Source: Candidatus Atopostipes pullistercoris (GTDB lineage Bacteria; Bacillota; Bacilli; Lactobacillales; Carnobacteriaceae_A). From it: a stretch of DNA of 36,317 nt. The notes beneath the pieces are model-generated. The model ran no database searches. It was not told where the DNA came from and saw only the letters and a list, made by a program, of their open reading frames with translations. Both the position numbers and the translations under genes were made by a program. This document shows positions 25,919 through 29,756 of this stretch, in pieces (position 1 is the stretch's first letter; the number at the start of each line of letters is the position of its first letter). Location of the stretch: assembly GCA_019116785.1 (NCBI GenBank), contig DXAZ01000013.1, positions 1 to 36,317 on the forward strand, in the 5' to 3' direction.

Positions 25919-25957
25919 ACAGCCCCTTTATTTTAAACCAATAAAGGGGCATTTTTT
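25919..25957 (+). terminator. Rho-independent terminator
   Basis: GCCCCTTTATT-ttaaacc-AATAAAGGGGCATTTTTTT. Confidence 0.9.
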
Positions 25958-25982: not shown

Positions 25983-26011
25983 TTGAAATATGTGAATTTA
26001 CATGTTAAATT
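25983..26011 (+). promoter_or_regulatory. Putative promoter for leader/ABC-F gene 1
   Basis: TTGAAA, 17-nt spacer, TAAATT just upstream of the leader ORF SD. Confidence 0.4.
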
Positions 26012-26041
26012 ACAGATAGATAAAAAAGGAGAGGTATATAG

Positions 26042-26068
26042 ATGTTAGCTTCAATAAGATTACGTTAA
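26042..26068 (+). CDS. Leader peptide MLASIRLR (macrolide-type regulatory uORF)
   Basis: ATG TTA GCT TCA ATA AGA TTA CGT TAA after AAAAAAGGAGAGG SD; C-terminal Arg-Leu-Arg (+X+) motif. Confidence 0.8.
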   Translation: MLASIRLR

Positions 26069-26219
26069 GAATGGCAATAAAAAGCAGTTCAATCTTATCG
26101 ATTAGATTGGCTTATTTGTCATGCTTAAAAAATCTTTATTGGGCGATATATCTATTAATAGTAATTCTTCTGGAGTAGAGGGAATTTATCTATTTGCGTA
26201 CCCAAAATATGATTATTTT

Positions 26220-26258
26220 TGCAGATTAAAGCCGATAAGACTTTGACCTGCATTTTTT
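26220..26258 (+). terminator. Intrinsic terminator inside the ABC-F leader (attenuator)
   Basis: TGCAG-a-TTAAAG-ccgataaga-CTTTGA-c-CTGCA-TTTTTT, upstream of the ORF in the same transcription direction. Confidence 0.75.
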
Positions 26259-26312
26259 ATTGCCTAACTGAGTTGATTAAGAAGGAATAATAAAATGCAG
26301 GAGGAATTATAA

Positions 26313-27785
26313 ATGGAAAATCTTGTACTTGAATTAAATCATATTGAAAAGAGTTTTATGAGTAAAAATGTATTAACTATCGATTGTTTAAAAGTTTATG
26401 AAAACGAAAAAATTGGCATTATTGGAGGAAATGGAGAAGGGAAATCAACGCTGCTCAATTTAATTGCTGGTAAGTTATTCCCTGATAGTGGAAAGATCCA
26501 TCGAACCATTGATTTTGAATACTATGAGCAAATCAAAGAAAACATTAGACCCGATTATATGAAAATTGACCCAGAATATTTATCTCGTCTAGATGTGCCA
26601 GATCATAAAGTCGCACATTTGAGTGGTGGAGAACAGACGCGTTTACGACTCGCTGAATACTTTTCAACCTATCAATTTGGTCTTTTGATGGATGAACCAA
26701 CGACACATTTAGATACAGAAGGTATCCAATTTTTAGTGGATCAGCTAAAATATTATTATGGGACACTAATGGTAGTTAGCCATGACCGTTACTTTTTAGA
26801 TGAAGTGGTAGATACCATCTGGGAAGTAAAGGAAGGCAAAGTAACCGTATATCCGGGAAATTATTCTAGCTATCAACAACAAAAAGAACAAGAGCTCGTT
26901 GAACAACAGAACGCTTATGAGAAATTTACTAAAGAAAAATATCGTTTAGAAAAAGCAGCAAAAGAAAAACAAAAACATGCAGAAAAATTAACGAATATAA
27001 GCAAAAAACAGAAAAGTCGATCCGTGAAGCCGGATCGCTTATCTTCTTCAAAACAAAAAGATACCGTACAAAAGGCGGCTCATAAATCTGCTAAAGCGCT
27101 CCAAAAAAGAGCGGAACAATTAAAAACCGTTGAAAAAGTGGAAAACAATCGTTCCATTCAGTTCCCCGAACCAGAAAATTTACAGATGCATAATGATTTT
27201 CCAATTATAGGTCAGAAAGTCACGATTCAAAAAGGAGAAAAATGTCTATTTAATGAAGCAAATTTCCAATTTCCGTTAGAAAAACGGATTGGTATTGTAG
27301 GACCAAATGGATCTGGAAAATCTACTTTATTAGAGCACATTATCACAGATGGTGAAGGAATCACTTTGTCAAATAAAATTGTCTTTTCTGTTTATAAACA
27401 GATGGCTTACCAATTAGCTGAAGATAAAACAATATTAGAATTCTTGAAACAGGACACTCATATGAAAGAGTCTATTATTCGCAGTATTTTAAATAATCTA
27501 GGATTTTCTCAAACTGAAATTGTAAAAAAGCTTATCACAAATTTAAGTGGTGGAGAAGCTACTCGTTTAGTAATTGCGAAGTTATTTACAATCCCAAGTA
27601 ATATTTTAATCTTAGATGAACCAACAAATTTTATCGATGTGCAGACAATTGAAGCTCTAGAGGTTTTAGTAAAAAGTTATAAAGGAACTGTTTTATTTAC
27701 TTCCCATGATAAATATTTTGTAGAAAATGTAGCCGAACAAATTTGGCGAATAGAAGATCAGCAGTTGAAGCTGATTGAATATTAG
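26313..27785 (+). CDS. ABC-F protein, Msr-like antibiotic resistance (ribosome protection) type
   Basis: Two NBDs without TMDs: GGNGEGKST, HLSGGEQTRLRLAE, LLMDEPTTHLD, VVSHDRYFLDEVVDTIWEVKEGKVTVYPGNYSSYQQQKE; charged interdomain linker; GPNGSGKST, ILILDEPTNFID. Closely resembles Msr(D)/Msr(C)-type proteins as recalled. Confidence 0.88.
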   Translation: MENLVLELNHIEKSFMSKNVLTIDCLKVYENEKIGIIGGNGEGKSTLLNLIAGKLFPDSGKIHRTIDFEYYEQIKENIRPDYMKIDPEYLSRLDVPDHKVAHLSGGEQTRLRLAEYFSTYQFGLLMDEPTTHLDTEGIQFLVDQLKYYYGTLMVVSHDRYFLDEVVDTIWEVKEGKVTVYPGNYSSYQQQKEQELVEQQNAYEKFTKEKYRLEKAAKEKQKHAEKLTNISKKQKSRSVKPDRLSSSKQKDTVQKAAHKSAKALQKRAEQLKTVEKVENNRSIQFPEPENLQMHNDFPIIGQKVTIQKGEKCLFNEANFQFPLEKRIGIVGPNGSGKSTLLEHIITDGEGITLSNKIVFSVYKQMAYQLAEDKTILEFLKQDTHMKESIIRSILNNLGFSQTEIVKKLITNLSGGEATRLVIAKLFTIPSNILILDEPTNFIDVQTIEALEVLVKSYKGTVLFTSHDKYFVENVAEQIWRIEDQQLKLIEY

Positions 27786-27813
27786 TAAGATAAAAGATTA
27801 GTTGAATATAAGA

Positions 27814-27855
27814 TAAAAGCCAATTCATCAATGAATGAATTGGTTTTTATTTTAT
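27814..27855 (+). terminator. Rho-independent terminator
   Basis: CCAATTCAT-caat(ga)-ATGAATTGG-TTTTTATTTT. Confidence 0.8.
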
Positions 27856-27863
27856 AAGGGAAT

Positions 27864-27892
27864 TTGACAAAAACGATTTCACATGGTACTTT
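27864..27892 (+). promoter_or_regulatory. Putative promoter for ABC-F gene 2
   Basis: TTGACA (27864-27869), 17-bp spacer, TACTTT (27887-27892). Confidence 0.6.
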
Positions 27893-27931
27893 ATAACCAA
27901 CTTATATAGAAAAGAGGGCAAAATTAAAACG

Positions 27932-27943
27932 ATGCGCAACTAA
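27932..27943 (+). CDS. Three-residue upstream ORF MRN
   Basis: ATG CGC AAC TAA preceded by AAAGAGGGC, in the leader of ABC-F gene 2. Confidence 0.45.
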   Translation: MRN

Positions 27944-28100
27944 TCCTATTTTTCCAAGAAATAGAGATAAATAAAATTTTGACTACGGCATTCGTATGTC
28001 TTATTTTATTCTATCTATTTTGTCGAACTGGAATAATGGGGGTAGGGGCAGACTCTATATTTTTAAGTATAGATATCTTTAATTTGCCGAAGCTTAGTGT

Positions 28101-28130
28101 GCTCCCATTATGAATGAGGGGCTATTTTTT
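28101..28130 (+). terminator. Intrinsic attenuator terminator upstream of ABC-F gene 2
   Basis: GCTCC-CATT-atg-AATG-a-GGGGC-ta-TTTTTT; its 5' arm CCCATTAT (28104-28111) can alternatively pair with ATAATGGG (28033-28040). Confidence 0.7.
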
Positions 28131-28157
28131 ATGCCTCCAGATTTTAGGAGGAATTTT

Positions 28158-29756
28158 ATGAATGTTGTTAATATTTTACATCTCAAAGTAACAATTGGTA
28201 CACGAAATCTTTTAGATCTTAAAAATCTGCATGTTCAAGAGAAACAAAGAATTGGTCTTGTGGGTAAGAATGGAAGTGGAAAAACTACACTCTTTAAAGC
28301 ATTGCTGGGTGAGGTTGATACAGATATCTCTAATTTTTCAACAAAAGGAAGATTGGCGATGCTTCCGCAATTAAAATATGCCGAAACGACTAAAAGTGGT
28401 GGAGAGATTTCCCAAGATTATATCGTTCAAGTTTTGAATCAGTCGCCAAATATTTTACTAGCGGATGAACCAACGACTAATTTAGATACTTCGCATGTTG
28501 AATGGGTAGAAAGTAAACTTAGTGAATACCAAGGAACAATTCTTCTAATTTCTCACGACCGAACATTACTTGATAGTATTTGCAATACGATATGGGAATT
28601 AGAAGAAGGAGAAATAACAGAATATAAAGGAAATTATTCAGACTACATTGAACAAAAAGAAAACAAAAAGAAGCATCAACAAAAAGAATATGAAAAATTC
28701 AAACAAAAGGAACAACAATTAGAAGAAGCGATTATACAAAAGGATAGACAAGCAGAAAGGGCAACTAAAGCTCCGAAAAATTTGTCTTCATCAGAAGCTC
28801 GAATAAAAGGAGCCAAACCATATTTTGCGAAATTACAAAAAGGTTTACATCAAAATCGAAAGGCACTGCAAACGCGATTAGAAAAACTTGAGGAAATTAA
28901 AAAGCCAAAAGAAGAGTATCCAATTAAAATGACATTGCCTAATACACGTTCTTTTGAAAACAAAGTCATTCTTCGTGCCCAAAAAGTAGCTGGACAAGTG
29001 GGGGATAAAAAACTCTGGAAACCTACAACTTTTTTCATAAGAGGAAAAGATAAAGTAGGGATTATTGGCGCAAATGGTAGCGGAAAGACGACTTTGTTAA
29101 AGAAAATTATGGACAAAGAAGATAAGAGTATTTTTTTATCTCCTGCTGTTAAAATTGGGTATTTTGATCAAAATATAAATCGTTTAGACACTAAAAAGTC
29201 CATTCTTGAAAATGTAAAGGAAGAGTCTAAACAAGATGAGACGCTTATCCGAACAGTTCTTGCACGCTTAGGCTTTTCTAATGAGGATGTTTATAAAGAG
29301 GTTAGTGTATTAAGTGGAGGAGAAAGAGTTAAGGTTTCACTAGCAAAATTATTTGTAAGTGATTGTAACACACTTATTTTAGATGAACCTACTAACTTTT
29401 TAGATGTCTATGCGCTTGAAGCACTCGAAGAGTTATTGATAGAGTACGAAGGAACGGTCTTATTTGTTTCACATGATCGTCAATTTATATCTTCAATTGC
29501 AACCAAAATCTTGTCTTTTGATGATGAGAAAAATCTAGAAATGTTTAACGGAACGTATGAAGAATTTAATCTTTACCATCAAAAGAAAGATAGAGATACA
29601 CAAGCCGAGCAACTCTTGAAAACAGAAATGGCGATAACCTCGGTACTCAATAAATTAAGTGAACCGCTAATTTCTGAATCAGAAAAAGAAGATCTTGAAG
29701 AAGAATTTCAAGAATTAATAACAAAAAAACGAGTACTTGAAGAAGATAACACATAA
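28158..29756 (+). CDS. ABC-F protein, Vga/VmlR/Lsa-like antibiotic resistance type
   Basis: GKNGSGKTT, LADEPTTNLD, LISHDRTLLDSICNTIWELEEGEITEYKGNYSDYIEQKE, lysine/glutamine-rich linker, GANGSGKTT, LSGGERVKVSLAK, LILDEPTNFLD; C-terminal coiled tail. ATG 28158 after AGGAGG; the track start 28110 lies inside the attenuator. Confidence 0.87.
   Translation: MNVVNILHLKVTIGTRNLLDLKNLHVQEKQRIGLVGKNGSGKTTLFKALLGEVDTDISNFSTKGRLAMLPQLKYAETTKSGGEISQDYIVQVLNQSPNILLADEPTTNLDTSHVEWVESKLSEYQGTILLISHDRTLLDSICNTIWELEEGEITEYKGNYSDYIEQKENKKKHQQKEYEKFKQKEQQLEEAIIQKDRQAERATKAPKNLSSSEARIKGAKPYFAKLQKGLHQNRKALQTRLEKLEEIKKPKEEYPIKMTLPNTRSFENKVILRAQKVAGQVGDKKLWKPTTFFIRGKDKVGIIGANGSGKTTLLKKIMDKEDKSIFLSPAVKIGYFDQNINRLDTKKSILENVKEESKQDETLIRTVLARLGFSNEDVYKEVSVLSGGERVKVSLAKLFVSDCNTLILDEPTNFLDVYALEALEELLIEYEGTVLFVSHDRQFISSIATKILSFDDEKNLEMFNGTYEEFNLYHQKKDRDTQAEQLLKTEMAITSVLNKLSEPLISESEKEDLEEEFQELITKKRVLEEDNT

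Follow-up and report, generated by a model that had tools for sequence, protein, structure and literature searches.

What controls the Msr-like ABC-F gene that lies behind a long leader in the window, that is, the whole 36,317-nt stretch of DNA analysed here? The leader carries a short upstream open reading frame (uORF), an intrinsic terminator and several complementary segments (Table 1). We consider that this chromosomal gene is controlled by a ribosome-operated transcription attenuator of the mef(E)/mel kind, with a probability of about 0.86. The analysis shows the anatomy of the leader, its conservation, its homology to mef leaders and a two-state fold by prediction. The signal is presumably a macrolide, and the ribosome probably stalls at the RLR codons.

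Table 1. Features of the leader and of the gene behind it (positions in the window)
Feature	Position	Strand	Description and basis
Promoter (predicted)	25983-26011	+	-35 TTGAAA 25983-25988, 17-nt spacer, extended -10 TG.TAAATT 26003-26011; scan
Leader SD AGGAGAGG	26027-26034	+	sequence; SD in 8/8 core leaders
R1/R2 stem (anti-antiterminator)	26040-26153	+	uORF codons and dIR1 (26040-26095) with 26104-26153; free MFE
Leader ORF MLASIRLR*, +X+ motif RLR	26042-26068	+	sequence and relatives
dIR1, antiterminator 5' strand GGCAATAAAAAGCAG	26073-26087	+	inverted repeat with 26254-26264; duplex tests
Antiterminator apical extension, TCAA and TCTTATCG (segment 2 of the earlier note)	26089-26100	+	masked MFE
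Intrinsic terminator	26220-26258	+	arms 26220-26231 and 26241-26252, loop 26232-26240, U-tract 26253-26258; MFE
dIR2 CCTGCATTTTTTATTGCC	26247-26264	+	in terminator, antiterminator and SD hairpin alike
dIR3 and gene SD	26283-26304	+	dIR3 26283-26301, running into SD AGGAGG 26299-26304; repeat search, SD-sequestering hairpin predicted
Msr-like ABC-F ribosomal protection gene	26313-27785	+	490 aa; profile and PDB matches

The gene and its transcription unit

The ABC-F protein scored 498 bits against NF000355, above the general cut-off of 380. Against NF000168 (Msr) it scored 669.5 bits, narrowly below the cut-off of 680, and it is thus labelled Msr-like. Its top PDB match was 5zlu_EE, a macrolide efflux protein chain. 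The family of the predicted protein is clear from its sequence, and the product probably has the Msr function. Relatives of the protein were searched for in viral contigs, and none was found there.

The genome is Atopostipes-like. The gene located 5′ of the promoter, which we take to be adhE-like, ends in its own terminator (25922-25950). The leader and the msr-like gene therefore form a separate transcription unit. The boxes of the promoter, TTGA[AC]A-like and TG.TAWAWT-like, have an identical location in most relatives, and transcription probably starts close to 26018. In A. suicloacalis, the msr-like gene is 82% identical and occupies the same place after an adhE-like gene (96% identical); the order adhE-msr-ABC-F is shared by the two.

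Leader peptide and homologous leaders

An 8-codon uORF with an SD, ending in Arg-Leu-Arg, had been described in an earlier note on this DNA, and we found it in place. Its codons are ATG TTA GCT TCA ATA AGA TTA CGT TAA, with AAGGAGAGG just 5′. It recurs in seven other msr leaders of Lactobacillales and in mef leaders, and the peptide of the core relatives reads M..S[MI]RLR. The RLR codons are AGA TTA CGT in the window and CGT TTA AGA in mef, so the motif was kept despite synonymous changes. Residue 5 is Ile in the window and Met in most relatives, with Ile also in one mef leader (L080). The classification as a macrolide-type +X+ leader peptide is supported by this retention in homologues and by the experiments in which the homologous mef(E)/mel leader was found to work in this way (PMC4335068).

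The leaders that we read come from 66 distinct loci of the msr family, in genomes and plasmids of Lactobacillales. A +X+ leader peptide was present in 46 of them, in two layouts. The first comprises eight leaders, including that of the window, with a peptide M..S[MI]RLR(K) of 8-9 codons followed by GGCAATA. Most of the others have the second layout, a peptide of 13-17 codons resembling MTASM[RK]LRxxLLNx. All seven other msr leaders of the first layout contain the uORF with [MI]RLR, dIR1, the terminator and dIR2, at -237 to -279. The mef(A/E) leaders also fall in the first layout (MTASMRLR, GGCAATAAAAAAAGCAG, terminator TGCAGACCAAAAGCC...GGCCTGCATTTTTTATTGCC, and TGCAGGAG at the SD of the gene). 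They align with the leader of the window in the same blocks; the middle of the leader, the R3/R4 region in mef, gave no alignment with mef. By blastn, the leader matched only in the terminator region, to mef loci in a plasmid and nine phages (E = 2e-4 against the phage mef leaders). The earlier view that a transcription attenuator precedes an Msr-like ABC-F target is supported, since both are kept in homologues and the homologous mef(E)/mel leader was found to act in this way (PMC4335068). Rfam at gathering thresholds gave 0 matches in the window.

A covariance model of the uORF/R1-R2 module matched in 37 of 398 Lactobacillales genomes, although several of the matched leaders had served to build the model and are matches by construction. 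Eight matches lie ahead of msr genes like that of the window. Of the others, seven were read or located before a mef-type MFS gene, and in most of the remainder an MsrD homologue follows about 1.6 kb further downstream. The model also matched in one more distant Bacilli genome (L094, minus strand), where an MsrD-like gene is preceded by MLHSMRIR, dIR1 and the same terminator. In Alloiococcus otitis (L014/L010), no recognisable +X+ uORF was found in the 700 bases upstream of a 70% identical msr-like gene.

Two further observations were made on these leaders. In L094, a second short ORF, MRHMRWNFFI, follows the terminator. The leaders L024-L061, which carry the longer MTASM[RK]LRxxLLN peptide, seem to be arranged differently: judged by eye, sequence 3′ of their uORF (CTTAGGAA, for example) is complementary to TTCCTAAG, next to the SD of the gene.

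A predicted two-state fold

The leader is unusually stable (MFE z = -2.5; 0 of 200 shuffles were equally stable). The free RNA of each of the eight leaders folds a long stem, in which the uORF and dIR1 pair with a downstream arm, together with the terminator. In the alignment of the eight leaders, 78% of the cells of the R1/R2 stem are paired, compared with 34-46% when the stem is slid, and six pairs were changed on both sides. The terminator, TGCAGaTTAAAG(CCGATAAGA)CTTTGAcCTGCA-T6, is located where it had been reported and its hairpin forms in the MFE; 98-100% of its cells are paired, with one compensatory pair. The NusG pause motif TTNTTT occurs in R2 of 11 of 12 leaders, which may only reflect pairing with the A-rich dIR1.

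The repeat search also revealed an inverted repeat that the earlier note had missed, GGCAATAAAAA (26073-26083) with TTTTTATTGCC (26254-26264), at 100%. When we masked the RNA from its 5′ end through 26075, a crude model of a stalled ribosome with Leu7 in the P site, the MFE contained the antiterminator in all eight leaders, given RNA through the repeat after the U-tract. When the RNA stopped at the U-tract, the switch already occurred in seven of the eight; the exception, L023, switches only when bases past the U-tract are included. Such masked pairing arises in 0-8% of leader-segment shuffles for those seven leaders and the mef leaders. In the masked fold of the window, 26076-26099 pairs with 26234-26261, and GGC 26073-26075 and GCC 26262-26264 are available beyond. 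The full antiterminator would thus join 26073-26099 with 26234-26264, i.e. the terminator loop, its 3′ arm, the U-tract and the bases after it.

The dIR1:dIR2 duplex was stronger than shuffles in 12 of 12 leaders (p ≤ 0.008), where 60-500 shuffles per test give only coarse p values and the 12 tests are not independent because the leaders are related. Its core (26073-26087 with 26248-26264) is paired in 98% of the cells of the eight leaders, compared with 43-55% when slid. It shows no compensatory changes because its sequence hardly varies.

We propose the following course of events. Without the drug, ribosomes would complete MLASIRLR and depart, the uORF and dIR1 would fold into R1/R2, and the terminator would halt transcription. 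When a macrolide occupies the exit tunnel, the ribosome would stall at the RLR codons and cover the RNA to about 26076. The base of R1/R2 would be opened, the freed dIR1 side would capture the loop and 3′ side of the terminator, and RNA polymerase would continue into the msr-like gene.

Several points speak against the attenuator: dIR1:dIR2 without compensation, the late switch of L023, Alloiococcus without a recognisable uORF, Ile5, and the Msr score below its cut-off.

Comparison with known leaders

Chancey et al. 2015 mapped the start site of mef(E)/mel and found that induction depends on the MTASMRLR leader (PMC4335068). In S. pneumoniae, the RNA ends at the terminator without a macrolide and runs on with it, and a dIR1:dIR2 antiterminator was proposed (PMC4335068). 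As described there, that leader has an 8-codon MTASMRLR-type peptide, R1/R2 over the uORF, dIR1 a few bases after the uORF, a terminator, and dIR2 over the 3′ side of the terminator and the U-tract (PMC4335068); our leader resembles it in all of these, with sequence homology throughout. The features that we found in the window are a short SD-led xRLR peptide, R1/R2 with the uORF and dIR1, a terminator, dIR1/dIR2 and the mef homology. By these features, the leader belongs to the already known mef(E)/mel kind; the target gene and the chromosomal setting differ. The leader of mef(E)/mel (Mega) precedes a mef efflux gene on mobile elements, whereas that of the window directly precedes a chromosomal msr-like gene, and the middle of the leader (R3/R4) does not align between the two.

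Other systems are less close. In vmlR and cplR, the uORF also lies in an anti-antiterminator, and an antiterminator, a terminator, an SD-hiding element and an ABC-F target are present (PMC9226507, PMC10201436). However, their uORFs are tripeptides answering pleuromutilin, lincosamide and streptogramin A drugs (PMC9226507, PMC10201436), and no sequence homology to the leader of the window was seen. The erm(D)/erm(K) attenuators (MTHSMRLR...) share the MRLR stall motif and transcription attenuation, but they have a methylase target and a longer leader peptide (PMC4335068). The enterococcal msr leaders with the extended MTASM[RK]LRxxLLN resemble erm(D)/erm(K) more.

These results place the mef-type drug-sensing leader on the chromosomes of Atopostipes and other Lactobacillales, directly before msr-like genes. 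The same RNA device is thus common to a ribosome-protection gene and an efflux gene. A leader swap between resistance genes in evolution, and a chromosomal source, become testable.

A possible translational lock

The same attenuator might also act on translation. A second inverted repeat missed by the earlier note joins 26247-26265 with 26283-26301 (79% of 19 nt), so that AGGAATAATAAAATGCAGG (26283-26301), a segment overlapping the SD of the gene, is a further complement of dIR2. In transcripts that leak past the terminator, dIR2:dIR3 would hide the SD, and capture of dIR2 by dIR1 would free it. We regard this addition as a serious contender, although still somewhat short of an even chance. 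The dIR2:dIR3 hairpin was stronger than shuffles in 12 of 12 leaders, including those of mef (p ≤ 0.04), and a C-G / T-A covariation is present at 26251-26297. Transcription and translation attenuation acting together are established for vmlR, cplR and tlrB (PMC9226507, PMC10201436, PMC6851288).

The folding is less favorable to the lock. At equilibrium, the SD hairpin dominates the masked full-length RNA (0.95 in the window), so the SD stays closed even when the ribosome is modelled. Opening it costs 7.5 kcal/mol in the masked RNA versus 9.6 in the free RNA. Because this hairpin wins at equilibrium, release of the SD would require that the antiterminator forms first and persists. The register of pairing also shifts between leaders, and the lock is absent from the distant leader of G418. 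In the strict register of the window (12 pairs), 71% of the cells are paired; a 10-pair version slid by two columns reaches 84%. One shared register was unsupported by this count, and the hairpin was instead assessed sequence by sequence.

We tentatively suggest that dIR2 may be a three-way hub in the msr and mef(A/E) leaders, serving as terminator arm, antiterminator partner and SD-hiding strand, though we would bet against it. If so, a single stalled ribosome would release both transcription and translation, in chromosomal msr and in the clinically important mef(A/E) leaders. We found no description of an SD-hiding layer for mef(A/E) leaders, and the text passages of PMC4335068 contain none. 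In mef elements, the predicted SD hairpin would add a layer of control that can be tested.

Other explanations of the switch

The earlier note had placed the switch mainly in the terminator loop, with 26093-26100 pairing with 26233-26240. Both 8-nt complementarities on which it relied are exact: ATAAGATT (26054-26061) with AATCTTAT (26091-26098), which the repeat search extends to 11 nt at 91%, and TCTTATCG with CGATAAGA at the loop. The first of them, between segments 1 and 2, is possible (91% of cells), but what folds in its place is a larger stem, uORF plus dIR1 with 26104-26153. The loop contact was significant against shuffles in the window (p = 0.004) and in L020 (p = 0.002), the two leaders with the exact match, and not in the other 10 leaders. 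Conservation was likewise partial: two pairs were changed on both sides and related contacts of different sequence are predicted in other leaders, but only 68% of the cells in the eight leaders are paired, against 98% in dIR1:dIR2. A switch through the loop is therefore improbable, and on the shuffle tests and pairing counts we rejected loop-only switching as the main mechanism. The antiterminator conserved among the leaders is dIR1:dIR2; it engages the 3′ arm and the U-tract of the terminator. In the predicted folds, the loop contact is the apical tip that continues this duplex (26089-26100 region with 26234-26246 in the masked MFE). It may be the first contact, since RNA polymerase makes the loop earlier than the 3′ arm.

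It is still less probable that the leader has decayed and is non-functional, or that its uORF is tuned to another drug class. Ile5 and Leu2 do differ from MTASMRLR. However, all elements are intact and conserved, RLR is preserved through synonymous codon changes, and the locus keeps its gene order in A. suicloacalis.

The leader of msrD (MsrDL) is also a macrolide-induced attenuator of an Msr gene, but with a MYLIFM peptide, stalling at the stop codon, a terminator near the uORF and no +X+ motif (PMC10314930). Direct obstruction, in which the stalled ribosome itself blocks the terminator and no antiterminator is needed, was proposed for that unrelated leader (PMC10314930); it is hardly credible here, where the terminator begins about 150 nt past the uORF stop, far beyond the footprint of a ribosome.

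Neighbouring features

The 465-aa ATPase-like protein encoded at 20682-22079 matches ATPase models of PADLOC, mad3 scoring highest at 174 bits. In a search of its own genome, the ABC-F query aligned to it through the ATP-binding cassettes. We did not accept it as a defence gene.

Tandem Msr-like and Vga-like ABC-F genes occupy 26313-29756, each behind its own predicted attenuator, and their order is the same in A. suicloacalis. The leader of the Vga-like gene (start 28158) spans 27866-28160, with TTGACA at 27866, a tripeptide ORF (ATG CGC AAC TAA, MRN*) near 27933 and, at about 28102-28130, a terminator. Each of these elements is conserved in A. suicloacalis (L009). Tripeptide uORFs are known from vmlR (MIN) and cplR (MRI). 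By analogy, the leader of the Vga-like gene seems to be an attenuator as well, one that would respond to a different class of drug.
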